Assembly: GCA_018971905.1 (NCBI GenBank)
Contig: JAGWZS010000038.1
Span: 1-11,005, forward strand
Direction of reading: 5' to 3'
Length of the DNA: 11,005 nucleotides
Origin: Rhodospirillales bacterium
GTDB taxonomy: Bacteria; Pseudomonadota; Alphaproteobacteria; Acetobacterales; Acetobacteraceae
Shown here: positions 16 to 11,005 of the stretch, piece by piece
How positions within the stretch are numbered: the first letter of the stretch is position 1
Layout: each line of letters opens with the position of its first letter
The notes under the pieces: generated by a model
What the model was told of the DNA's origin: nothing
Database searches by the model: none
The model's input: the letters and a program-made list of their open reading frames with translations, nothing else
Translations under genes and position numbers: made by a program

Positions 16-291
16 TTAACTACACGTGTCGTTAGGGCCAGCCTGCCAGAACTTGCACCATCCATGCGGGCTGATGACACCCCCGATCATGGTACAATGC
101 CCAGGATCGCCGGGGATGAACATACAACAAGCGGCACATTGCTCTCCACTGTGTGGGGTGTCCTGGTAAGCGGCCTGTTTCTTGGACATCATGGCCATCG
201 CCGCGGCCGGGCGCAGGACCACGAAATTGAACACCGCGGCCGAAAAAGCGGCAAGAGCCCCACGCTTAAGCAGAATACGACGGGTAGACAT
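16..291 (-). CDS. High-potential iron-sulfur protein (HiPIP), Tat-exported
   Basis: This 91-residue protein is a small periplasmic electron carrier of the HiPIP family, which binds one 4Fe-4S cluster cycling between +2 and +3. The N-terminus has a twin-arginine signal (TRRILLK at residues 3-9, then a hydrophobic stretch to about residue 32 ending in Ala-rich sequence), as expected for a cofactor protein exported folded. The mature part of about 60 residues has the HiPIP cysteine order C52-x2-C55, C66, C79, followed by K-F-W, with the usual Tyr42 and Pro/Gly-rich loops. Cys56 beside Cys55 and Cys90 near the end are extra. A GAGG ribosome-binding site lies about 8 bases before the ATG. Family members carry electrons from cytochrome bc1 complexes to reaction centres or oxidases, or act in thiosulfate or iron oxidation. 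Which applies here is not visible. It stands alone, about 440 bp from the end of the amine operon. Confidence 0.9.
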   Translation of the reverse strand: MSTRRILLKRGALAAFSAAVFNFVVLRPAAAMAMMSKKQAAYQDTPHSGEQCAACCMFIPGDPGHCTMIGGVISPHGWCKFWQAGPNDTCS

Positions 292-731: not shown

Positions 732-1769
732 TTACATGCGGCCCTCCTCGAACCCGGTTAGGACATTGACCGCATTGATACCGATTTCCGCCACGGCGTA
801 GCCGCCTTCCATGATGAACAAGGTAGGCTTGTCCAGACTGGCAATGCGTTGGCCGGCCCGCGTGAAGTCGTCGCTGCCGAGTTGGAAATGCGAAATAGGA
901 TCTTCCTTATAGGCGTCAACGCCCAGTGATACCACGACGGCATCGGGGTTGTAGGCAACGATGCGCCGTAACCCCACCTCCAGCGCGGCGGACCATTCCG
1001 GCCAACTAGTGCCCCAGCGCATGGGGAGGTTGAGGTTAAACCCCTCTCCCGGTCCGGCACCCAGTTCATCCTCGAAGCCAAGCAGGTAAGGATATTCCTC
1101 GTCCGGATGACCATGCAGGGAGACGAAGAGGACGTCATCACGCTGATAGAAGATTTGCTGCGTACCATTGCCATGATGATAATCGATATCGAGGATAGCG
1201 ATGCGTTTGGCTCCGTCATCCAGCAGTTTTTGCGTGGCGATGGCAGCATTGTTAAGGAAGCAATAGCCTCCAAAATAGTCGGCACCGGCATGATGGCCAG
1301 GCGGACGGCAGAGCGAAAATGCCGCGCTGGCGCCGCTGGTGATAAGGGCTGCACCGGTAAGGGCAACGTCTACCGAAGATTTGATCGCCTGCCACGATGT
1401 TTTGGTGATGGGGGTGCCGCAATCGAAGCTGTAATAGGCAAGCCGCCCATCCAGGCTGGTGGGAACACGGTTTGCGCGCATGCTGCCTGACCTCCAGGTA
1501 TAGGGATAGGCGGCGCCGCTGCGTCCCATCCTCTCCCATTCGACCGAGGCGGTTTGCAACAGGGACACCATGCCATCGTCGTGAATCCGCGTGATGGCGC
1601 CTAATGGAAATTGATCTGGCGGAGAAACATCGCCAAGGCCAATCTGCCTAATGCGAGAGAGAACAAGTTCAGCACGTTCGGGTTTCTCAAAGGCGGGGAC
1701 AAATTCGCCGAAGAGCAATTCACCGGGGCTGTGATGCAGGAGATGATCCTGACTGTAAATGGTTTTCAT
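732..1769 (-). CDS. Acetylpolyamine amidohydrolase (class II HDAC-like fold)
   Basis: This 345-residue zinc enzyme of the arginase/histone deacetylase superfamily hydrolyses N-acetyl groups from acetylated polyamines such as N-acetylputrescine, giving free amine plus acetate in the cytoplasm. Length and motifs match the Mycoplana ramosa enzyme (about 341 residues). The paired histidines are H159-H160 in RPPGHHA. The zinc ligands are D196 and H198 in DIDYHHGNG and D285 in SLGVDAY. The transition-state tyrosine is Y324 in MEGGYA. Each is one residue later than in M. ramosa as I recall it. Glu17, near the active-site entrance in that enzyme, is also in the same position. It is the last gene of the amine operon, 20 bp after the cupin stop, with a GGAG ribosome-binding site before the ATG. 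No terminator is obvious downstream. Other superfamily members act on acetylated histone-like or acetoin-pathway substrates, but the fit here is to the polyamine subgroup. Confidence 0.92.
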   Translation of the reverse strand: MKTIYSQDHLLHHSPGELLFGEFVPAFEKPERAELVLSRIRQIGLGDVSPPDQFPLGAITRIHDDGMVSLLQTASVEWERMGRSGAAYPYTWRSGSMRANRVPTSLDGRLAYYSFDCGTPITKTSWQAIKSSVDVALTGAALITSGASAAFSLCRPPGHHAGADYFGGYCFLNNAAIATQKLLDDGAKRIAILDIDYHHGNGTQQIFYQRDDVLFVSLHGHPDEEYPYLLGFEDELGAGPGEGFNLNLPMRWGTSWPEWSAALEVGLRRIVAYNPDAVVVSLGVDAYKEDPISHFQLGSDDFTRAGQRIASLDKPTLFIMEGGYAVAEIGINAVNVLTGFEEGRM

Positions 1770-1789
1770 AGCTGCGGCTCCGCTTGGGC

Positions 1790-2158
1790 TTAGAGATCCG
1801 TGGTGGCACAGATGTAACTTTTAAGAATTCTTGGGGAGAGAACATGCCAGATGATTGTGGTACCTTTGGCGATGATCCAGGAATCACCAGCGCCGTAAGT
1901 TTCGCTTTGGCCGGTCGACACATCGGTGAGACGAAGTTCGCCTTCGAGCAAGGTGGCGTGCTCGTGAAACGGATACGTGACACGGTAGCGGCCATGGCTG
2001 GCTGCATAGAAGCCGCCGGAGACAGGAGTTTCCAGCGTGCCGAAGAGCAGTTTGCCGGACACCTGCATTGGACCGTCCAGTGTTTCCGCACCAATATCTT
2101 CCGGTCGCCCCCAAACGTCGAGCGTGGGAACGGCGGAGCCAAGTTTAAAGGCGAGCAT
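1790..2158 (-). CDS. Cupin_3 (DUF861 / EutQ-like) domain protein
   Basis: This 122-residue single-domain cupin begins 15 bp after the amine dehydrogenase stop, with an AAAGGA ribosome-binding site. Cupin motif 1 is at residues 62-74 (Y-P-F-H65-E66-H67-A-T-L-L-E72-G-E), giving likely metal ligands His65, His67 and Glu72. Motif 2 is at 91-106 (GDSWIIAKGTTIIW, then H-V), with the W-x-V ending typical of the Cupin_3 family that also contains EutQ-like proteins and (S)-ureidoglycine aminohydrolase-like enzymes. There is no signal peptide or membrane segment. Its reaction is unknown. Its place in an amine operon suggests a role with the dehydrogenase or aldehyde dehydrogenase products, either enzymatic (for example on an imine or aldehyde-ammonia adduct) or accessory. 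That role is inference only. Confidence 0.8.
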   Translation of the reverse strand: MLAFKLGSAVPTLDVWGRPEDIGAETLDGPMQVSGKLLFGTLETPVSGGFYAASHGRYRVTYPFHEHATLLEGELRLTDVSTGQSETYGAGDSWIIAKGTTIIWHVLSPRILKSYICATTDL

Positions 2159-2173
2159 GGTGTGATCCTTTGG

Positions 2174-4252
2174 TCAGGCGTTGAGTAGTTGGGCAATTTC
2201 ACGGCGGAACGGCAAGGTGCCGTCCGGCAGGGGGGGAGCATCCAGCTCTTCAGCATAGCGATGGCCGGCATAGACCGCATGGGCGATGGTGGCAGGGGCA
2301 AGGGCGTCGCCGATCGTTGTCACCGATTCGATTCCAGAATCAGCGAACTCTTCGCTTCTGGCTTCGAGAGCGAGACGCAGCGAATCATTGGGCAGACGCG
2401 CCGTAATCAGGATGACGGCATCCACCTCGACACGCTCCTCACGCCCCGTAAAGGCGCATGACAAGGTGACATGATCTCGAGAAATATGAGATATAACCTT
2501 GAAAGATTTTATGGACACGCCCTTTTCCAGCATGCGCCTCTGGATGAAATGCTGCTCCATGGTGTTGCGCGTCCAGGTCGAGGCTTCAGAGGCAGGGGTG
2601 GCATAGATGGTGTCGTAGCCACGTTCCGCCAGAAGTTCCGCCATTACGCCGCCCATGTAATAATGGTCGTCGTCCCAGACCAGTACTCGTTTTCCGGCTG
2701 GCAGGCACCCTTGCATGATGTCGCTTGGAGAGAGCACCTCCATGCCTTCGGCAATGGCAATGGGCCTTGTATGGTGATGGCCCACGCCGTCGCGCCGCCA
2801 GGTGGCACCGGTGGCAAGCAGGATACGGGGAAAGCCGAACTCCAGCGCATTCCCGGCCGTTAGCCGACTGTCGAAATAAATCTGCACATTGGGAAGCTGG
2901 CGAAGCTGCATGTCGCGATAGTCGCGCACGCGAATCCAGGCGGCGAGGCCAGGGAGTTTCGCTTCCTGCGCAACGCGGCCGCCAAGCTCGGTCGTGGCCT
3001 CAGCCAGGGCGACATCATAGCCGCGCTTGCCCAAAGCATGCGCCGCTTCCAACCCTGCAGGGCCGGCGCCGATAATGAGAATGGATTTGTCACTAGCCTT
3101 GGCTTTGATGCGCTCCGGATGCCAGCCTTTACGCCACTCCTCGCCCATGGTGGGATTCTGGGTACAGCGCAACGGCGATTGCGTGAAATCGCCCGAGACG
3201 CAGATATTGCAACCGATACATTCGCGGATATCGTCGAGCCGGCCTTCGGAGAGCTTGTTGGGCAGAAAAGGATCGGCAATGGAAGGACGCGCCGCGCCGA
3301 TAAGGTCTAGCACGCCTTTGCGCACCAGGCTCGCCATGCGGTCCACCGAGGTATAACGCCCGACCCCAACCACAGGCTTGCTGGTGAGCCGCCTGATATT
3401 GCTGATGAAAGGCTCCTGCACACCTTCCTCGGCAAAGCGGGAGGTCTGGCTGTCATTCTCCCAGCCCGCCAGCGTCACGTCCCACAAATCGGGCAAATCA
3501 GCCATCAGGCCGATCATGTCCTCAACTTCTTCCTTGTAGAGACCACCTTCGCCGATCAACTCATCAACCGAAATGCGTACCGGAATAGCGCAAGTGTCGC
3601 CGACCGCTTCTTTGCTATCCTCGGTGATTTCACGCAGAAGGCGGATGCGGTTCTCCAGGCTGCCACCATATTCATCAGTGCGGTCGTTATAGCGGCGCGA
3701 CAGAAAATGATGGAGAAAGCCGAGCGCGTGGGCAGCATACACATAAATGAGGTCGAACCCAGCACGCTTGGCGCGGTGCACGGCCTGCAGATGCCATTTA
3801 CGGATATTGACGATGTCGGTCTTGTCCATCCGGCGGGTCTGCACCGGGTCGTAGGTGAAGGTCGCGACGGGCAATGAGGCGGGGCCCATGGGTACTTCAC
3901 GCGAATAAAGGTTGGAACCGTTCATGCCGTTATAGGCAAGCTCGATGCCAGCCAGGCTGCCCTGGGCATGGATTTTATCTGCCATTTTGGCGAGCGCGGG
4001 AATATCGCGATCATCCCACAACCGGAGCTCGATGAACGGGGTGATATCGGACGAGTAATGCATCTCAACCTGCTCGGTGCAGACCACTGCCCACCCGCCC
4101 TCGGCCTTGATGCCACGCATTTCGGCCAGGGCGGAGGGATCTCGATAGCCCATGCCGTTGCAATGCGGCACTTGGTAGAAGCGATTGCGGGCCGTGACGG
4201 GGCCGATTTTCACCGGCTCGAAAAGAATATCGTGCGAAGGATGGCGGGCCAT
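2174..4252 (-). CDS. Amine dehydrogenase, FMN/4Fe-4S flavoprotein (histamine/dimethylamine/trimethylamine dehydrogenase family)
   Basis: This 692-residue protein oxidatively deaminates an amine to an aldehyde (plus ammonia or a smaller amine), passing electrons through FMN and a 4Fe-4S cluster, usually to ETF. An old-yellow-enzyme barrel spans residues 1 to about 340. Cys31 in FYQVPHC matches the cysteine that covalently holds FMN in trimethylamine dehydrogenase (TMADH Cys30). Tyr172, His175 and Asp267 match its catalytic residues. The 4Fe-4S ligands are C345, C348, C351 and C363. A nucleotide-binding domain begins with GAGPAG at 395-400, and a second Rossmann-like segment (522-545) corresponds to the ADP-binding part. 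The TMADH aromatic box Tyr60/Trp264/Trp355 is Gln61/Trp264/Asp355 here, which I recall as the histamine dehydrogenase pattern. The substrate is therefore probably a primary amine or diamine (histamine, putrescine, agmatine), not trimethylamine. Start: AGGAG lies 7 bases before the ATG. It sits 13 bp after the aldehyde dehydrogenase gene. Confidence 0.88.
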   Translation of the reverse strand: MARHPSHDILFEPVKIGPVTARNRFYQVPHCNGMGYRDPSALAEMRGIKAEGGWAVVCTEQVEMHYSSDITPFIELRLWDDRDIPALAKMADKIHAQGSLAGIELAYNGMNGSNLYSREVPMGPASLPVATFTYDPVQTRRMDKTDIVNIRKWHLQAVHRAKRAGFDLIYVYAAHALGFLHHFLSRRYNDRTDEYGGSLENRIRLLREITEDSKEAVGDTCAIPVRISVDELIGEGGLYKEEVEDMIGLMADLPDLWDVTLAGWENDSQTSRFAEEGVQEPFISNIRRLTSKPVVGVGRYTSVDRMASLVRKGVLDLIGAARPSIADPFLPNKLSEGRLDDIRECIGCNICVSGDFTQSPLRCTQNPTMGEEWRKGWHPERIKAKASDKSILIIGAGPAGLEAAHALGKRGYDVALAEATTELGGRVAQEAKLPGLAAWIRVRDYRDMQLRQLPNVQIYFDSRLTAGNALEFGFPRILLATGATWRRDGVGHHHTRPIAIAEGMEVLSPSDIMQGCLPAGKRVLVWDDDHYYMGGVMAELLAERGYDTIYATPASEASTWTRNTMEQHFIQRRMLEKGVSIKSFKVISHISRDHVTLSCAFTGREERVEVDAVILITARLPNDSLRLALEARSEEFADSGIESVTTIGDALAPATIAHAVYAGHRYAEELDAPPLPDGTLPFRREIAQLLNA

Positions 4253-4265
4253 GCGACGGCTCCTG

Positions 4266-5762
4266 TTAGGTGGTATATTTGATCCAAACGGTCTTCAACG
4301 CCGTGAATTTATCCAGGGCATGCAACGAAAGATCTCGGCCAAACCCTGACTGGCCCATGCCGCCAAAGGGCGTCTGCGGGCTGAGTGCATCCACCGTGTT
4401 CACCGAGACCGTGCCCACGCGCAGGCTGTCCGAAACACGCAAGGCGCGATCCAGATCGGCCGTCCAGACCGAGGCAGCAAGCCCATAAACACTGTCATTG
4501 GCAAGGCGAATGGCGTCTTCCTCTGTATCAAAGGGAATGATCGACAGCACAGGACCGAAAATCTCGTCACGCGCCAGGCTGGAGCCAGGATCGACATTGT
4601 CAAAAATCGTTGGCTGCATGAAGGCGCCGCGAGGATGGAGCGGCACACGGGCGCCGCCGGTTACGAGCCGGGCAGAGGGCGGCGCGGCCTCGACAAAGCG
4701 CATGACATGATCGAGATGGGCATGGTCCACGAGCGCCCCCATGCGGCTCGTGGGGTCCAGCGGGTCGCCGGGCTGCATGGTCGCGGCGATGGCGGCGAGA
4801 CGCTCCACAAACTCGGCCTGGATACGGCGTTCAACGAGCAGGCGCGCATTGGCGGAACAAACCTGCCCGGCATTAAAGAAAATCCCAAAGGCGGCCATCC
4901 GCGCCGCTTCGTCGAGATCCTTGGCGTCAGCGAAAACGAGGTTGGGGCTCTTGCCTCCAAGCTCTAGCCAAACCTGCTTGAGATTGGACTGGCCGGAATA
5001 TTCCATCAGCGCGCGGCCGGTGCGGGTGGAGCCGGTAAAAGCGAGGCAGTCAACATCCTGGTGCAATGCAAGAGCCTTGCCCGCCTGGTGACCAAAGCCG
5101 GTGACGACGTTCAGTACACCGTCCGGCAGCCCGGCCTCGCGTGCCAGCTCGGCCAAGCGCAGAGCGGAAAAGGGCGAGCGTTCGGACGGCTTCAGCACCA
5201 CGCAATTGCCTGCAGCGAGAGCCGGGGCACATTTCCATGCCGCCATGTCGAACGGAAAGTTCCATGGCACGATGGCGCCGACAACGCCCAAGGGAACACG
5301 GCGGACAAGAGCGAGGTTGCCCGGACCGACGGGGGCGACCTCTTCGGCGATCTTGTCCAGCGCCTCGGCATAATAGCGCCAGACGGCCGCAGCGCCGGGG
5401 ATATCGATGGTCGCGGCTTCTTCAACCGGCTTGCCCATATCCAAACTTTCCATCGCCGCCAGCTCGGCGGTATGGCGCTCGATGAGTTCGGCCAGACGCA
5501 GCAGAATAATGCGGCGCTCAGCCATAGACTTGCCAGACCAGCGCCGGTCTTCGAAGGCCGCACGGGCAACGCAGACGGCGCGGTCTATGTCCGCCGCGTT
5601 GCCCATTGCAACGTGCCCCAGCACCTCGCCTGTGGCAGGATTGGCTTTGGCAAAGCTGGCGCCATCAGCAGCAGGTACAAACACACCGTCGATAAAAAGC
5701 TGATCGCGCATGGTGAGGGATGCGGCGAAACGCTGCCACTCGGAGCAAGATTTTAGAGGCAT
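4266..5762 (-). CDS. NAD(P)-dependent aldehyde dehydrogenase, PuuC-like
   Basis: This 498-residue cytosolic aldehyde dehydrogenase oxidises an aldehyde to the carboxylic acid. All superfamily landmarks are present: PWNFP with Asn168, Lys191 in LKPSE, Glu267 in LELGGKSP (general base), Cys302 in NAGQVCSAN (nucleophile), and Glu400 in EIFGP. The closest family I recognise is E. coli PuuC (gamma-glutamyl-gamma-aminobutyraldehyde dehydrogenase). The stretch around residues 211-248 (GLPDGVLNVVTGFGH and AFTGSTRTG) and the C-terminal SLHALDKFTALKT both resemble it closely. The N-terminal WQ...SL segment also matches PuuC, supporting the first ATG over Met18. An AAAGGA ribosome-binding site lies just before, overlapping the permease stop region 11 bp upstream. 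In this operon it should take the aldehyde made by the amine dehydrogenase, for example 4-aminobutanal to GABA, or imidazole acetaldehyde to imidazole acetate if histamine is the substrate. Confidence 0.93.
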   Translation of the reverse strand: MPLKSCSEWQRFAASLTMRDQLFIDGVFVPAADGASFAKANPATGEVLGHVAMGNAADIDRAVCVARAAFEDRRWSGKSMAERRIILLRLAELIERHTAELAAMESLDMGKPVEEAATIDIPGAAAVWRYYAEALDKIAEEVAPVGPGNLALVRRVPLGVVGAIVPWNFPFDMAAWKCAPALAAGNCVVLKPSERSPFSALRLAELAREAGLPDGVLNVVTGFGHQAGKALALHQDVDCLAFTGSTRTGRALMEYSGQSNLKQVWLELGGKSPNLVFADAKDLDEAARMAAFGIFFNAGQVCSANARLLVERRIQAEFVERLAAIAATMQPGDPLDPTSRMGALVDHAHLDHVMRFVEAAPPSARLVTGGARVPLHPRGAFMQPTIFDNVDPGSSLARDEIFGPVLSIIPFDTEEDAIRLANDSVYGLAASVWTADLDRALRVSDSLRVGTVSVNTVDALSPQTPFGGMGQSGFGRDLSLHALDKFTALKTVWIKYTT

Positions 5763-5773
5763 GGCGCAGTCCT

Positions 5774-7168
5774 TTATTCCGCCACGGCGGGAAGAATAAC
5801 ACCTTCCACGCAGTAGCGCCGGGGACGAAAAAACACGATACCTGCCAACAATGTACCAACACCGACAATGATGGTGGTGGTATTAAATGTGGTGATGGCA
5901 TAGATGCCTGTGCCAATGAGGGCAACGGCGCTCAGCCCTGGAAAGAGCGAGAAGGCAAACCAGCGCCTCCAGGATTCCCGATAAGCGTCGCGATAAATCC
6001 AGGCGGATACCAGTCCGGCCATGCCGAAATAGTAAGAAACCTGCAAGCCCGACGCGGTGACGCCATCACTCAATATGGCGCTGACTGAGGGCATGAAGCC
6101 CGTCAGCAGGATACCGGCCAGACCGGCGCCAATGAGCCAATAGGTGGCTTGCAGCGGGCTTTGAGTTTTAGCGCTGACCTTGCCGAGATAATGGGGCAGT
6201 GCGCCGTCGCGGCCCATGGCGAAAAGGGTGCGGGTAACTTGCAGCATGCCTGTCTGCACCGTCGCGGCACTGGAAAAAATGACCGCGATGGAGGCAATTA
6301 AACCACCGGTGCGACCCAGGCCCGACGCAATGGAGATTTGATAAAGAAGGTTGCTGCTGAAATTCTGAGTCTGCGCCATCGTAAAAAGAATGAGTGCGGC
6401 AGCGGCGTAGAGCGAATACAGAAAAATGGTTGCGATGACACCCGACAGACCGCCATTTCCTGCGGCGTGCTCACCGTTCCGGGTTTCCTCGCCGAGATTC
6501 GCCGTGACGTCCCATCCCCAATACAGAAAGACCACAACAAGGGCCGAGGCAGCAAAACTCTGACCAGAGAAATGATGGATGAGATAGCTTGGGCTGTAGA
6601 GATGAAACGAGAACGGGTTGGCAAAAGACGTGGCATGCCCATGGACGATTGCCGCGGCGCCGATGATCAGAAGAACAACGATCTCGAAGCTCAGCATAAC
6701 AACCTGCAGATAGCTGGTAAGCTTGATACCGAACATGATCACGCCGACGATAAGGAGGAACCAGACCGCAGAGAGTGCAGTGGTCAGGGCCACGTTGTTG
6801 ACCAGACTGGGGTTGATGAAATCCAAGATTGCCGTGGAAAGAGGAACGACACCCGAGATGATGAAGATCATCTGCGCTGTGATCAATGCCCAGCCAGACA
6901 TGAAGCCATTGAATTTACCAAACGCTTGGCCGACCCACTTGAACGCAGCGCCGGCATGGGCACCGCGCCTGTTCAACCCTTTATAGGCCATCGCAATCCC
7001 AAGCATGGGCACAGCGAAAACAAGAATGTAAAGCGGGCTGAGCAGACCGGCGATGCCAATGAGAGACCCCATGGCAAGGGCAATCGCGTTGGCTGGCCCT
7101 GAGCCGGCAACACCAAGCACCAGTGACTCAAAGAAAGACAAAGAGTTTTCACGAAGTTTATCGCTCAT
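5774..7168 (-). CDS. APC superfamily amino acid/polyamine permease
   Basis: This 464-residue inner-membrane secondary transporter of the amino acid-polyamine-organocation superfamily has about 12 hydrophobic segments, at roughly 17-36, 44-61, 88-112, 124-147, 153-175, 206-225, 243-264, 288-308, 340-358, 370-391, 403-422 and 432-447. The first segment has the small-residue break typical of APC substrate sites (GVAGSGPANA, 19-28). Segment six carries YWGWD followed by GEE (216-228), the second unwound region. The start has a strong AAGGAG site 8 bases before the ATG. It is the first gene of the operon, 11 bp before the aldehyde dehydrogenase, and is probably the importer of the amine substrate. 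Substrate cannot be read from sequence. The neighbours suggest a polyamine, acetylpolyamine or histamine, but an amino acid remains possible. Confidence 0.9.
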   Translation of the reverse strand: MSDKLRENSLSFFESLVLGVAGSGPANAIALAMGSLIGIAGLLSPLYILVFAVPMLGIAMAYKGLNRRGAHAGAAFKWVGQAFGKFNGFMSGWALITAQMIFIISGVVPLSTAILDFINPSLVNNVALTTALSAVWFLLIVGVIMFGIKLTSYLQVVMLSFEIVVLLIIGAAAIVHGHATSFANPFSFHLYSPSYLIHHFSGQSFAASALVVVFLYWGWDVTANLGEETRNGEHAAGNGGLSGVIATIFLYSLYAAAALILFTMAQTQNFSSNLLYQISIASGLGRTGGLIASIAVIFSSAATVQTGMLQVTRTLFAMGRDGALPHYLGKVSAKTQSPLQATYWLIGAGLAGILLTGFMPSVSAILSDGVTASGLQVSYYFGMAGLVSAWIYRDAYRESWRRWFAFSLFPGLSAVALIGTGIYAITTFNTTTIIVGVGTLLAGIVFFRPRRYCVEGVILPAVAE

Positions 7169-7194
7169 GCTGGTCTCCTTTTTGAGGGGCTGCT

Positions 7195-7206
7195 GTCAAA
7201 GTTGAC
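7195..7206. promoter_or_regulatory. Short dyad in the permease leader
   Basis: The sequence GTCAAAGTTGAC is a 5-bp palindrome (GTCAA/TTGAC) around a 2-base centre, 27-38 bp before the permease start codon. Its centre is 34 bp (about three helical turns) from the centre of the larger dyad at 7226-7243. It could be a second half of an operator or chance. Confidence 0.2.
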
Positions 7207-7225
7207 GCTGGGAGAAAGAACCGGC

Positions 7226-7243
7226 GGGATTGATACCAATCCC
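7226..7243. promoter_or_regulatory. Candidate operator: 18-bp inverted repeat upstream of the amine operon
   Basis: GGGATTG and CAATCCC form perfect 7-bp arms around ATAC, 58-75 bp upstream of the permease start codon. The size and position suit a dimeric repressor or activator. It is not followed by a T-run on either strand, so it is not a terminator. No convincing -35/-10 pair is visible beside it and no regulator gene lies in the window. Confidence 0.4.
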
Positions 7244-7470
7244 ACTCGACTTTCCTTATGTCTTGGACGCGTTATCAGGCCGGGGCATTTAAAACGGTCT
7301 TTCGCTGAATTTATATCTTGCGAACCATGAGATCGTGGGTTTCAACAAGCACCAGAAGCGGGACTTTCACTCGTGGGCGCCAAAGCTTTTCTCCGTTTTG
7401 TATGAATTATTGGAGCTTACACATTGCAGGGCAACAAAAGCCTGGAAACAGGGCTCGATGCGGCGGCGCC

Positions 7471-7500
7471 TGGTCGCACCGGGTGTCGGGAGCGCGACCA
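7471..7500 (-). other. Hairpin following the micro-ORF
   Basis: TGGTCGC and GCGACCA are perfect 7-bp arms with a 16-base loop. On the minus strand it starts 12 bases after the stop of the 21-codon micro-ORF at 7512-7577. No T-tract follows, so it is not a standard Rho-independent terminator. It could be part of a leader structure or coincidental. Confidence 0.25.
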
Positions 7501-7511
7501 TCACCTTCGCA

Positions 7512-7577
7512 CTACATACAGACATTTGCCTTCGGCAGATTGGGCCGACCGTCATAGCCAATAAACATGGGCTGCAT
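7512..7577 (-). CDS. Micro-ORF, possible leader peptide upstream of the amine operon
   Basis: This 21-codon frame begins MQPMFIG, contains GRPNLPK and ends NVCM before TAG. An AGGAG sequence lies 4 bases before the ATG, a slightly short but usable spacing. It is on the same strand as the amine operon, with its stop 343 bases before the permease start, and a hairpin follows within 12 bases. I do not recognise the peptide. It may be a regulatory leader, a small secreted or modified peptide precursor, or chance. The good ribosome-binding site is the only direct support. Confidence 0.25.
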   Translation of the reverse strand: MQPMFIGYDGRPNLPKANVCM

Positions 7578-7847
7578 TTCACTCCTGGTTATTTTTAGCG
7601 GCCTCCTATTTGAACTTTAGATAACACGAAGCAAATTGCACTCATCATCGAATTTACTGAAGCTCAAATGAGTTTTTCCCTCAAACGAGACCAAAAAAAT
7701 AACCCGCACCATTCAGCGCCGCCTTATTTTTAAGCATTTTGTCCAGCATCACGGGTTTTGACCCGGTAGATCGACCCATTTTTAGCGCAAATTTTTACGT
7801 ATATTCTCCAGGTTCAGGCCTCATTCTTTGAAATAGGCAGCGACTGA
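7578..7847. other. AT-rich intergenic stretch, no gene seen
   Basis: This stretch is visibly richer in A and T runs than its surroundings (for example around 7690-7700 and 7726-7740) and has frequent stops in all frames. The only structure I see is a short hairpin, CGGGT-TTTG-ACCCG, near 7751-7764, not followed by a T-run. It could carry the promoter for the minus-strand transcript covering the micro-ORF and amine operon, but no hexamer pair stands out. Confidence 0.4.
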
Positions 7848-8039
7848 AGCCGCGATGGTGATGGCAGCGCGAAAGGCGTCACCAGCAGCCCGCTCACCGG
7901 CCCCTGGCCCGAAAACCTGCCCCTGAAAGCCGGCGCCACCGCCCTGCGCCAAGCGGCCCGCGAGGCGAAGAACAAAGAGGAAAACGCTTCGGAACTCGAC
8001 CAAAAGCGACTAGCGCAACATATTGTTATTGCTAGTTAA
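7848..8039 (+). pseudogene. Start-less open frame, possible C-terminal gene remnant
   Basis: This frame stays open for 63 codons after a TGA and ends in TAA two bases before the encoded CCA end of the tRNA gene. It has no ATG or GTG in frame. From about 7884 it has protein-like character: GPWPENLPLKAGATALRQAA, then a charged Lys/Glu-rich helix, with GC-rich third positions unlike the AT-rich DNA before it. I do not recognise the family. It may be the decayed 3' end of a gene left beside the tRNA, or a chance frame in a GC-rich patch. The minus-strand frame over the same bases is less convincing. Confidence 0.25.
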
Positions 8040-8040
8040 T

Positions 8041-8116
8041 TGGTGGGTGCACAAGGATTCGAACCTTGGACCTACTGATTAAGAGTCAGCTGCTCTACCA
8101 ACTGAGCTATGCACCC
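8041..8116 (-). tRNA. tRNA-Lys (anticodon CUU)
   Basis: On the minus strand this 76-base sequence folds as a complete tRNA. The acceptor stem is GGGTGCA/TGCACCC with discriminator A and an encoded CCA. The D arm contains AGCTCAGTTGGTAGAGC. The anticodon loop is CTCTTAA, with anticodon CTT read as CUU for lysine AAG codons. The T arm contains GGTTCGAATCC. The identity is supported by resemblance to the bacterial tRNA-Lys body. The gene separates the minus-strand amine operon from the plus-strand liv genes. Confidence 0.97.
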
Positions 8117-8251: not shown

Positions 8252-8352
8252 CAAACCCGCCCTCACGCCTAAATTTTTCCCTGATTTTTGAGGAATGCCG
8301 CCTTCTGCGGCAATCCATGCACAACCCCGGCATTTCGTCCACAATGGGGGCA

Positions 8353-8379
8353 TTGACCTTAACGCATCGGTCATATCCA
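8353..8379 (+). promoter_or_regulatory. Weak candidate promoter for livHMG
   Basis: TTGACC (8353-8358) and TATCCA (8374-8379) are separated by 15 bases, which is short. They would start a transcript about 25 bases before livH. If this is the true promoter, the hairpins at 8204-8251 lie upstream of the transcript. If transcription starts further left, they are in the leader. Confidence 0.2.
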
Positions 8380-8400
8380 ATGCCGACATAGGGCCGCGGC

Positions 8401-8406
8401 AAGGAG
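8401..8406 (+). promoter_or_regulatory. Ribosome-binding site fixing the livH start
   Basis: AAGGAG lies 5 bases before the ATG at 8412. The same frame is open back to an ATG at 8295, but that start has no such site and the added 39 residues do not resemble LivH proteins, which begin near the first membrane segment. Confidence 0.75.
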
Positions 8407-8411
8407 ATTCC

Positions 8412-9320
8412 ATGGCATACGCCTTACAACAACTCGTTAATGGCCTGACTCTGGGCATGATCTACGGCCTGATCGCCGTTGGCTACACCATGGTTTACGG
8501 CATCATCGGCATGATTAATTTTGCCCATGGCGACGTGTTCATGATCGGTGCTTTCGTTGGTATTTTCGTTATCACCGCGCTTACCGGCCTTACCTCCCTG
8601 CCGCTGGCGCTGCTGGCGGCTTTTGTGTTCTCGGCCTTCATCTGCGCGGTTTATGGCTTTGCCATAGAACGCGTGGCCTACCGGCCGCTGCGCGGCTCGT
8701 TTCGCCTGGCACCGCTGATCTCGGCCATCGGCATGTCCATTCTGCTGGAAAACTATGTGCAGGTAAGCCAGGGCGCGCTGGAGCGTGCAATTCCGAACCT
8801 GCTTCCCGGCGGGATCACCCTGATGGATGAGAACGGCTTCGTGGTGCAGCTCTCCTGGATGCAAATGGCCATCATGGCGGTAACACTGGGGTTGCTGGCG
8901 GCGTTCACTTACCTTGTTACCAAAACCCCGCTGGGCCGCGCCATGCGCGCCGTGGAGCAGGACGCCAAAATGGCCGCCCTACTGGGGATAGACACCAACC
9001 GCACCATCTCCATCACCTTCATCATCGGCTCGGCTCTGGCCGCCTTCGCGGGGGTGATGTTCCTGCTCTATTACGGGGTGATCGATTTTTATATCGGCTT
9101 CAACGCCGGCATTAAAGCCTTCACCGCGGCGGTGCTGGGGGGTATCGGCTCGCTGCCGGGTGCGGTGCTGGGCGGATTGCTGATCGGGCTTATCGAGGCG
9201 TTCTGGTCTGGTTATGCAACCGTCGCCTACAAGGATGCCGCGGTTTATTCCATCCTCGCCATTGTGCTGATGTTCATGCCAAGCGGGCTGCTGGGCCGCC
9301 ATGAGGTGGAAAAAGTATGA
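8412..9320 (+). CDS. livH: Branched-chain amino acid ABC transporter permease LivH
   Basis: This 302-residue integral membrane subunit is of the high-affinity branched-chain amino acid importer type. With LivM it forms the translocation path through the inner membrane. Family signatures include the N-terminal NGLTLGMIYGLIAVGYTMVY, then INFAHGDVFMIGAF (35-48), RPLRGSFRLAPLISAIGMSI (91-110), and the cytoplasmic ATPase-contacting loop TPLGRAMRAVEQDAKMAALLGID (split across 172-194). The C-terminus carries AVLGGIGSLPGAVLGG. About eight hydrophobic segments are seen. The start at 8412 is set by AAGGAG just upstream. The stop overlaps the livM start as ATGA, indicating translational coupling. Related systems import urea, amides or other amino acids, so the substrate is not certain. 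Confidence 0.95.
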   Translation: MAYALQQLVNGLTLGMIYGLIAVGYTMVYGIIGMINFAHGDVFMIGAFVGIFVITALTGLTSLPLALLAAFVFSAFICAVYGFAIERVAYRPLRGSFRLAPLISAIGMSILLENYVQVSQGALERAIPNLLPGGITLMDENGFVVQLSWMQMAIMAVTLGLLAAFTYLVTKTPLGRAMRAVEQDAKMAALLGIDTNRTISITFIIGSALAAFAGVMFLLYYGVIDFYIGFNAGIKAFTAAVLGGIGSLPGAVLGGLLIGLIEAFWSGYATVAYKDAAVYSILAIVLMFMPSGLLGRHEVEKV

Positions 9321-10597
9321 GCGCCCAGCTTGAGGATCTGAAGGATTCCGCTGCCGCCGCGTTTGTAGCCCTGCTCATATTCGGCCCCTTCATAGGGCTG
9401 CGGCTTACCGACAACGACGCTGGAAATCTGGGTCTTTCTACCCGCCCTGTGGCGCTGATCCTGGCGGTAATCGGGGTTTTCGCGGCCCGCCTGCTGATCC
9501 TCACCTGGGCCCGCCACCGCCCGGCGAAGCTTGCCCCTGGGCTTGGCGCGCGGGTGCAGAAAACCGGCAAATTCATAGCCCCAGCCTTGCTGGTTTTCGC
9601 CATTGTAATGCCGCTGCTGCCCGGCCTGCCCAACGCCTACATCGACCTTGGTGTGCTGATCATGACCTATGTGATGCTCGGCTGGGGGCTGAACATTGTG
9701 GTCGGCCTCGCCGGGCTGCTGGACCTTGGCTACGTGGCCTTCTACGCCGTGGGGGCATATTCCTTCGCACTCATCTCCATCAATTTCGGCCTGGGGTTTT
9801 GGGAATGCCTGCCCCTCGCGGGGATTCTCGCCGCCTTCTGGGGCATGTGCCTGGGGTTTCCGGTGCTGCGGCTGCGGGGCGATTATCTGGCGATCGTGAC
9901 CCTGGCATTTGGAGAGATCATCCGCCTGGTCATCACCAACTGGGTCTCGCTCACCGGCGGGCCGAACGGAATGCTTGGCATGCCGGAACCCACATTATTT
10001 GGGCTGAGATTTTCCATGGCGGGCGGGCCTGGCACCTTCGCCGGGTTTTTTGGGCTCACCCCTGCCCCCTGGCAGCGCGATGCATTTCTTTATTACGTGA
10101 TCCTGGGGCTGGCGCTGCTAACCAACTGGGTAACGCTGCGGCTTCGCCGCCAACCCCTGGGCCGCGCCTGGGAGGCACTGCGCGAGGATGAGATCGCCTG
10201 CCGGTCGCTAGGCATAAATGTTCGCAACACCAAACTCACCGCCTTTGCCATCGGCGCGTTTTTTGGCGGTTTCGCGGGCTGCTTCTTCTCCGCGCGGCAG
10301 GGCTTCATCAGCCCGGACAGTTTCACCTTCATCGAATCCGCCACCGTGCTGGCCATTGTGGTACTGGGTGGGGCGGGCAGCCAGCTTGGCGTGGTGCTGG
10401 CCGCCTGCGTCATGATCGGCGTGCCGCAGATGCTGCAAGGCTTGCAGATCTACCGCATGCTGATTTTTGGCATAGCACTGGTGCTGATTATGATTGTGCG
10501 CCCGCGCGGCTTCATCTCCACCCGCCGCCCCACCGTTTTGCTGGGGAAAGAGGCCGTGGCCATAGGCGGGGAATTGCGCGCCGAAGGAAGGGGCTGA
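9317..10597 (+). CDS. livM: Branched-chain amino acid ABC transporter permease LivM
   Basis: This 426-residue second membrane subunit of the importer pairs with LivH. It is of the long type, like E. coli LivM (about 425 residues), with an extra N-terminal hydrophobic region (about 13-100) before the core. Core signatures are LGWGLNIVVGLAGLLDLGYVAFYAVGAY (split across 121-148), FPVLRLRGDYLAIVTLAFGEI (181-201), TGGPNG (213-218), and the ATPase-contact loop GRAWEALREDEIACRSLGI (282-300), which is nearly identical to the enterobacterial one as I recall it. Then come RQGFISPDSFTF and IVVLGGAGSQ. It overlaps livH by four bases and ends three bases before livG. Confidence 0.95.
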   Translation: MSAQLEDLKDSAAAAFVALLIFGPFIGLRLTDNDAGNLGLSTRPVALILAVIGVFAARLLILTWARHRPAKLAPGLGARVQKTGKFIAPALLVFAIVMPLLPGLPNAYIDLGVLIMTYVMLGWGLNIVVGLAGLLDLGYVAFYAVGAYSFALISINFGLGFWECLPLAGILAAFWGMCLGFPVLRLRGDYLAIVTLAFGEIIRLVITNWVSLTGGPNGMLGMPEPTLFGLRFSMAGGPGTFAGFFGLTPAPWQRDAFLYYVILGLALLTNWVTLRLRRQPLGRAWEALREDEIACRSLGINVRNTKLTAFAIGAFFGGFAGCFFSARQGFISPDSFTFIESATVLAIVVLGGAGSQLGVVLAACVMIGVPQMLQGLQIYRMLIFGIALVLIMIVRPRGFISTRRPTVLLGKEAVAIGGELRAEGRG

Positions 10598-10600
10598 ACC

Positions 10601-11005
10601 ATGACGGTGCTGGCCGTAACCGACCTGACCATGCGCTTCGGCGGGCTTACCGCCGTTAACGACGTCTCGTTCTCCGCCGAGCGCGGCGAGATCACCGCCA
10701 TTATCGGCCCGAACGGTGCTGGCAAAACCACGCTGTTCAACTGCATCACCGGTTTTTATAAACCCACCGTGGGCAGCATCGTCGTCTCGCCCGAAGTGGG
10801 AAAGATCGTGCAGCTTGAAAAGCTGCCTGGCCATGCCATCGCCCGCAAGGGCAAGGTGGCGCGCACTTTCCAGAACATAAGGCTGTTCGGTGGCATGACG
10901 GTGCTGGAAAACCTGATGGTGGCGCAGCACAACGCGCTGCAAGCCGCCACCGGCTTTGGCGTGCTGGGCGTGCTGGGCATTGGCGGCTACCGCGCCGCCG
11001 AGCGC
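10601..11005 (+). CDS. livG: Branched-chain amino acid ABC transporter ATPase LivG, 5' part
   Basis: The first 135 codons of an ATP-binding subunit run off the end of the window. The start ATG follows a GGAAGGGG-type ribosome-binding site and lies three bases after the livM stop. Visible landmarks are MRFGGLTAV near the N-terminus, the Walker A motif GPNGAGKTT (36-44), NCITGFYKP, and the Q-loop ARTFQNIRLF (Gln91). MTVLENLMVAQHN and a Gly/Leu-rich stretch corresponding to the LivG helical region follow. The ABC signature and Walker B motifs lie beyond the window. LivG pairs with LivF, which is expected next, to power transport through LivHM. Full LivG proteins are about 255 or more residues, so roughly half is seen. 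Confidence 0.95.
   Translation, partial: MTVLAVTDLTMRFGGLTAVNDVSFSAERGEITAIIGPNGAGKTTLFNCITGFYKPTVGSIVVSPEVGKIVQLEKLPGHAIARKGKVARTFQNIRLFGGMTVLENLMVAQHNALQAATGFGVLGVLGIGGYRAAER

Follow-up and report, generated by a model that had tools for sequence, protein, structure and literature searches.

The operon and its genes

The 11,005-bp stretch of Rhodospirillales DNA analysed here (the window) makes up all of contig C282 in a draft genome of 1.98 Mb with 81% completeness (label G000). It carries a five-gene amine-catabolic operon centred on a flavoprotein of the histamine dehydrogenase type. All five open reading frames (ORFs) are intact, start with ATG, have no internal stops and lie on the minus strand. 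In operon order, with the upstream region last, the features are:

7168-5774, minus strand: APC-family amine permease, 464 aa (AA_permease_2); candidate histamine importer, HinA-like role
5762-4266, minus strand: aldehyde dehydrogenase (ALDH), 498 aa (Aldedh); candidate imidazole-4-acetaldehyde dehydrogenase, HinD-like role
4252-2174, minus strand: histamine dehydrogenase-type flavoprotein, 692 aa (Oxidored_FMN, Pyr_redox_2 and an OYE-like second domain)
2158-1790, minus strand: EutQ-like cupin, 122 aa (Cupin_3)
1769-732, minus strand: acetylpolyamine amidohydrolase (APAH) of the histone deacetylase (HDAC) fold, 345 aa (Hist_deacetyl)
7169..8040, no strand assigned: intergenic region upstream of the operon, with one promoter-like match at 7434-7406, minus strand

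The five-gene operon is real. From permease to APAH the intergenic gaps measure 11, 13, 15 and 20 bp, and purine-rich Shine-Dalgarno-like stretches precede all five starts, the weakest being that of the APAH. The preliminary description of this DNA had reported the single strand, gaps of 11-20 bp with ribosome-binding sites and the same five families, all of which are borne out, the families by Pfam/NCBIfam-type matches. Its view that the genes form a single operon for amine breakdown, covering import, oxidative deamination and aldehyde oxidation, also stands, as does its placing of the dehydrogenase in the covalent flavin mononucleotide (FMN) family; histamine figured among its candidate substrates. 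The layout suggests co-transcription. Promoter-like matches (1, against a shuffle mean of 4.2) and terminator-like matches (3, against 9.1) are fewer than in shuffled sequence and offer no functional evidence.

The flavoprotein and its genomic context

The two nearest solved relatives of the flavoprotein are the histamine dehydrogenases 3k30 of Nocardioides simplex (930.8 bits) and 6de6 of Rhizobium sp. (917.5), followed by 6l6j (687.8) and trimethylamine dehydrogenase (TMADH), 1djn (542.9). The domain architecture of histamine dehydrogenase (Oxidored_FMN, Pyr_redox and an OYE-like second domain) is present. C31, C345, C348, C351 and C363 are each conserved in 104/104 aligned relatives; by homology C31 would be the covalent FMN site and the other four the 4Fe-4S ligands, as in TMADH. 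Y172 is also invariant, D355 occurs in 102/104 relatives, and the triad is Y172/H175/D267. The residues described for the Rhizobium enzyme include the pocket positions Gln60, Tyr171, His174, Trp263 and Asp354 (PMC10180351). Of the window counterparts, Q61, I70, F73, E75, N111, Y172, H175, W264 and D355 are the same as in that enzyme, while its Phe176 is Leu177 in the window.

Pseudomonas putida U requires hinABCD (hin1) and hinFLHG (hin2), among other genes, to degrade histamine; HinA is a transporter, HinC and HinD yield imidazoleacetate, and HinFLHG lead to aspartate (PMC8231116, PMC6467879). Neighbours of this kind recur around the dehydrogenase. We compared 94 dehydrogenase loci (80 named loci, 13 further ones and the window), a set with at least one duplicate, L027 and L058 having identical dehydrogenase rows. 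By protein clusters, DUF1028 is found in 45, LysR in 40, RidA in 37, a flavin monooxygenase in 37 and an M20 amidase in 33 (M20 genes of cluster c52 lie outside this count); rarer neighbours are an HpaB-type monooxygenase (13), the cupin (7), APAH-like genes (7, that of L094 not being an APAH), AspA (5) and the window-type permease (5). Home-made hidden Markov models (HMMs), whose counts differ slightly from those of the clusters, place DUF1028, monooxygenase and M20 jointly in 27/80 named loci. The link of the dehydrogenase to Hin-type context is common rather than universal. In quick trees, with support by SH-aLRT only, the window protein falls in a 10-row clade (SH-aLRT 98), five rows of which have Hin context. 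The triad His175 is Lys in 8/104 relatives (L025-L028 and four other loci); these include a further dehydrogenase clade of the window's genus, part of which sits in Hin-type clusters.

The Nocardioides albus dehydrogenase (L094) scores 1459 bits with 3k30, the characterised enzyme of N. simplex, and is its near-ortholog; its stretch holds an ALDH, an NCS1 transporter, a monooxygenase, DUF1028, M20 and AspA. This locus would anchor the Hin-type context to a characterised histamine dehydrogenase. On a Paracoccus seriniphilus plasmid the row runs FAD-dependent oxidoreductase, RidA, DUF1028, ALDH, dehydrogenase, ArgE, followed by LysR on the opposite strand and an ABC transporter. A Shinella plasmid has ALDH, dehydrogenase, ABC transporter, RidA, DUF1028 and ArgE, and one of Ideonella dechloratans has LysR-ALDH-dehydrogenase-cupin, without APAH.

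Permease, ALDH and dehydrogenase are co-located in four other genus genomes (L021-L024), with three extra genes between ALDH and dehydrogenase in L021. Orthologs of the permease, which has one weak solved relative, are 69-80% identical in L021-L024, L044 and L191. In L002, L021, L043 and L044 the cupin is the next gene after the dehydrogenase; its relatives, 54-68% identical (these four loci, L022 and L024), follow either a dehydrogenase or a monooxygenase. When the gene set that the preliminary description had proposed to look for in other genomes is traced, permease, ALDH, dehydrogenase and cupin are conserved, but the APAH is not. For the ALDH the top NCBIfam model is PuuC (621 bits, under its cut-off of 850), and the best solved relatives are 4lih, 5iuu and 6b4r/KauB. 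Relatives 54-80% identical to it sit in loci with the dehydrogenase, or with a transaminase or monooxygenase module.

The lower module was also approached from its monooxygenase. A search of 398 genomes of the phylum gave 40 positives, and 19 loci, hand-picked mostly from the better matches, were fetched. By home-made HMMs DUF1028 accompanies the monooxygenase in 17/19, M20 in 14/19 and RidA in 10/19. Five of the 19 (L198, L199, L203, L207, L215) have monooxygenase, RidA, DUF1028 and M20 contiguous in the order F-L-H-G, as at L203:6524-10087, L207:8592-12405 and L215:8436-11971; this gene order predicts that HinH is DUF1028 and HinG is M20. A full dehydrogenase lies in three of the loci (L208-L210; a partial match of 52 bits in L205 was left out of the dehydrogenase counts). 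Three others (L198, L202, L204) have a class-III transaminase and an ALDH with no dehydrogenase in the stretch, the transaminases having been found by motif and then confirmed with Pfam. ALDHs 55-57% identical to that of the window accompany the transaminases in Hin-type loci. Dehydrogenase loci and transaminase loci around one module are what would be expected if both enzymes were interchangeable first steps.

Within a sample of 25 genomes of the genus, the dehydrogenase was called at E < 1e-250 and the monooxygenase counted at ≥60% identity, matches of 38-40% (G004, G018 and second copies) being left uncounted. The dehydrogenase is present in 12/25. DUF1028 together with the monooxygenase (≥60% identity, or HpaB) is found in all 12 of these and in 2/13 without it; in G007 and G017 the upper and lower genes form one cluster. 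In the window's own genome all four lower-module families are present on two other contigs, H and G being assigned by gene order: C221 carries an NCS1 permease, M20, LysR, DUF1028, a class-II-aldolase-like ORF and RidA, and C202 a monooxygenase as a 178-aa fragment at the contig edge. The preliminary description had called the operon self-contained; this fails if the substrate is histamine, because the ring-opening genes lie on other contigs.

As in the Hin pathway, permease and ALDH accompany the first deaminating enzyme, which comes here from another family, the class-III transaminase HinC being missing from the window operon. For this reason the operon would count as a variant, not a member, of the Hin type. 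An unlinked class-III aminotransferase at G000:C273 is 47% identical to that of L204; matches of 46-49% occur in 22/25 genus genomes, the window's included, with or without the dehydrogenase.

The acetylpolyamine amidohydrolase

Among solved structures the APAH scores highest with 9gkz (421 bits), 6phr (377) and 3q9b (363), and in alignment with these it has the HDAC-fold motifs GHH, DxHHGNGTQ, GVD and GGY. PsApaH deacetylates acetylputrescine and acetylcadaverine (PMC11532494), and P. aeruginosa APAHs are active on the same two compounds (PMC4784309). The window APAH falls in a genus clade whose members, 63-78% identical, are located elsewhere. Close copies occur in 10/25 genus genomes, two of which (G011, G023) lack the dehydrogenase. 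Conversely, no close APAH accompanies the dehydrogenase in G005, G007, G021 and G024, and G007 (100% complete, 10 contigs) has the cluster. Nine of the 10 other close copies (all but that of G011) were fetched; none stands beside the operon, and that of G012 (L175) neighbours PotD/PotC/PotA. The 15 dehydrogenase loci compared from relatives (13 from the genus) and L043-L045 contain no APAH, several of them being truncated by contig ends. On the relatives' loci and the APAH tree it was rejected as a conserved operon member; so far it is a lineage-specific one.

A change of specificity was considered by comparison with 144 relatives and rejected. The loop HGHP...YPY.LG is common to the seven genus-type APAH rows examined, and the window protein's own changes at well-conserved positions are few (T286A, where 143/144 relatives have Thr, and positions 95, 96, 100, 179, 250 and 319), making no case for a new substrate. 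Residue 286 adjoins what we take to be a zinc-ligand aspartate.

Elsewhere, a full-length APAH lies near the dehydrogenase in 5/80 named loci (L052, L074, L081, L092, L114). In the class sample the dehydrogenase is present in 45/385 genomes, and two besides that of the window (G200, G327) have an APAH within 5 kb. Two settings can be told apart. In one, transporter, amidase, APAH, dehydrogenase and AguB form a row (L052, L092, L178), a pattern fitting an N-acetyldiamine route; in the other the APAH lies close to histamine-type genes but on the opposite strand (L081, L114, L177, L208). The rows of the first setting, L052:6456-12973, L092:8977-19188 and L178:6163-16578, unite Pot transporter genes, amidase, APAH, a histamine-dehydrogenase-family flavoprotein and AguB, which in L052 scores above the NCBIfam cut-off. 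They are candidates for a polyamine or N-acetylamine route through a flavin dehydrogenase and would be nearer to that idea than the window. HDAC genes of two subfamilies occur near histamine-type genes. Those of the window and of L081, L114, L177 and L208 are full-length APAHs; that of L094 (16129-17328) belongs to a different subfamily and adjoins the monooxygenase in the N. albus histamine-type cluster. L094 was dropped as APAH-positive, its HDAC protein being 35% identical over 209 residues.

The cupin-APAH junction is about 1.8 kb from the contig end. Beyond the operon, window 16-291 (minus strand) encodes a small protein of the HiPIP family (Pfam 23.9 bits against a cut-off of 22) that weakly resembles iron oxidase Iro (46.7 bits against a cut-off of 100). 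A tRNA-Lys(CTT) lies at 8041-8116 on the minus strand, and LivH/LivM/LivG-like ORFs, read by eye, occupy 8295-11005 on the plus strand, divergent from the operon. A near-identity search of the window against plasmids gave only short matches.

Proposed pathway, alternatives and known systems

We propose that permease, ALDH and dehydrogenase very probably make up an operon of the hin1 type, with a flavin dehydrogenase replacing HinC. In favour of this reading, (i) the nearest solved proteins are histamine dehydrogenases; (ii) their cofactor and pocket residues are kept; (iii) the families of the Hin lower module recur nearby, also around the N. albus near-ortholog; (iv) in three other loci the module comes with a class-III transaminase and an ALDH instead; (v) in the genus, DUF1028 and a monooxygenase go with the dehydrogenase. 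Gene order, families, active-site residues, recurrent context and the presence of the lower-module families are observed; the substrate, co-transcription and every reaction are predicted from sequence. The permease would import histamine, and the flavoprotein, with covalent FMN and a 4Fe-4S cluster, would oxidise it to imidazole-4-acetaldehyde and ammonia, passing its electrons to an acceptor of the electron transfer flavoprotein type, as is usual for the TMADH and histamine dehydrogenase family. The ALDH would convert imidazole-4-acetaldehyde to imidazole-4-acetate, from which monooxygenase, RidA, DUF1028 and M20 amidase, encoded on other contigs, would lead to aspartate as HinFLHG do. The APAH would be an addition at the tail of the operon peculiar to this lineage, most likely retaining an ordinary role as N-acetylamine deacetylase. 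That it deacetylates N-acetylhistamine, perhaps along with further N-acetylamines, and thereby lets the operon use free as well as acetylated histamine, is a speculative extension that we consider unlikely.

Several observations weigh against the proposal. The window has Leu177 where the Rhizobium and N. simplex enzymes have an aromatic residue (F176 and Y181), and in a Rhizobium library every active clone retained F176 (PMC10180351). Leu occurs at this position in 35/104 relatives, some in Hin-type loci; the position appears variable within the family and is not taken as defining histamine dehydrogenase. Agmatine, diaminopropane or putrescine are further substrates of both characterised enzymes, at lower rates (PMC10180351). 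Within the sequence covered, neither Hin nor polyamine context surrounds 41/104 dehydrogenase rows, where contigs often end, and a Sinorhizobium meliloti copy (56% identical) is without any Hin neighbours, which speaks against a uniform role. The lower module is itself identified by families and gene order, so its assignment is provisional. G006 and G014 have it without the dehydrogenase. In G006 and G024 (L189, L190) the HpaB-type module adjoins ORFs that by eye resemble formamidase, a dihydroorotase-like amidohydrolase and a three-subunit molybdenum hydroxylase; with such neighbours the module may serve another N-heterocycle. The genus association (Fisher p=2e-5) is uncorrected for kinship. 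Its class-wide counterpart (34/45 versus 63/340 genomes, odds ratio 13.6) could stem from genome size or kinship, as the DUF1028-APAH pair associates too (10.4); class-wide presence and absence were judged weak evidence, all three pairs tested being associated.

The side activities of the characterised enzymes also bear on the possibility that the flavoprotein oxidises agmatine or putrescine, a KauB/PuuC-like ALDH then yielding 4-guanidinobutyrate or 4-aminobutyrate (GABA). The best solved relatives of the ALDH, a gamma-glutamyl-aminobutyraldehyde dehydrogenase and KauB, would suit such an operon, as would an Arginase-family gene near the cluster in L022. We nevertheless consider it unlikely: the recurrent neighbours are imidazoleacetate-module families, the 55-57% identical ALDHs sit with transaminases in Hin-type loci, and the ureohydrolase cluster appears in just 3/99 loci, other GABA or guanidinobutyrate genes lying outside the search. 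The preliminary description had suggested a distinct route for N-acetylated diamines such as N-acetylputrescine, in which import, deacetylation by the APAH and successive oxidation by flavoprotein and ALDH make up a single pathway. The co-directional APAH with its 20-bp gap agrees with this, as do L052 and L092, where an APAH directly upstream of such a dehydrogenase has AguB and PotABCD near it, L178, with the same genes and a transporter gene between, and L074, with the APAH-dehydrogenase pair alone. However, the APAH recurs in none of the 15 dehydrogenase loci of relatives nor in L043-L045, several of them truncated, the complete G007 has the cluster without a close copy, the window APAH is a genus ortholog whose fetched copies stand apart from the operon, and the APAHs beside dehydrogenases elsewhere are on other branches of the tree. 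With the flavoprotein closest to histamine dehydrogenases and imidazoleacetate-module neighbours around it, this route was not upheld and seems highly improbable. A di- or trimethylamine dehydrogenase operon is scarcely credible. Several sources do name relatives dimethylamine/trimethylamine dehydrogenase, but the score with TMADH is far lower than with histamine dehydrogenase (543 versus 931 bits), the aromatic bowl of TMADH, Tyr60/Trp264/Trp355, corresponds to Q61, W264 and D355 here, and no methylamine genes were noticed nearby, though no search was aimed at them.

The operon is best read as a variant of the known histamine pathway, with a flavin dehydrogenase for HinC and an APAH particular to this lineage. 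Food-testing kits make use of histamine dehydrogenase, and the literature naming it is, by title, mostly about food and assays. The context described here spans Alpha-, Beta- and Gammaproteobacteria as well as Actinomycetota and links this family to an apparently complete histamine pathway. The flavin dehydrogenase stands where Pseudomonas has a transaminase, and DUF1028 gains a testable role as the predicted HinH. According to a review, the Gram-positive bacteria sequenced up to that time had no hin genes (PMC8231116), and Hin homologs have been reported in Brevibacterium (PMC6467879); the actinomycetotal clusters found here extend them beyond that genus. We found no paper naming DUF1028, pairing 'Acidocella' with 'histamine', or joining 'histamine dehydrogenase', 'aldehyde dehydrogenase' and 'operon', which is weak evidence of novelty, most subscription literature lying outside the search.

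Compared with the Hin system of P. putida U and P. aeruginosa PAO1, the window shares the grouping of permease, ALDH and first deaminating enzyme, and the separate monooxygenase/RidA/DUF1028/M20 module (H and G by gene order); it differs in the flavin dehydrogenase, the added cupin and the APAH. Its flavoprotein resembles the N. simplex and Rhizobium histamine dehydrogenases (EC 1.4.9.1) in full-length homology, cofactor cysteines, Tyr/His and the Gln/Trp/Asp pocket; it differs in Leu177 for Phe/Tyr and in Asn266-Asp267, which is Gly-Asp in N. simplex and Asp-Cys in Rhizobium. With TMADH (1djn) it shares family and, presumably, cofactor set, whereas pocket residues differ. The L052, L092 and L178 rows likewise bring dehydrogenase family and APAH close together, but in a context of polyamine-type transporter and N-carbamoylputrescine amidase and on other branches of both proteins. 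The APAH shares full-length homology and HDAC-fold motifs with PsApaH (9gkz) and the Marinobacter (6phr) and Mycoplana (3q9b) enzymes; it differs from these in its loop, HGDP...FP.FLG in all three, and in its place beside a histamine dehydrogenase-type gene.

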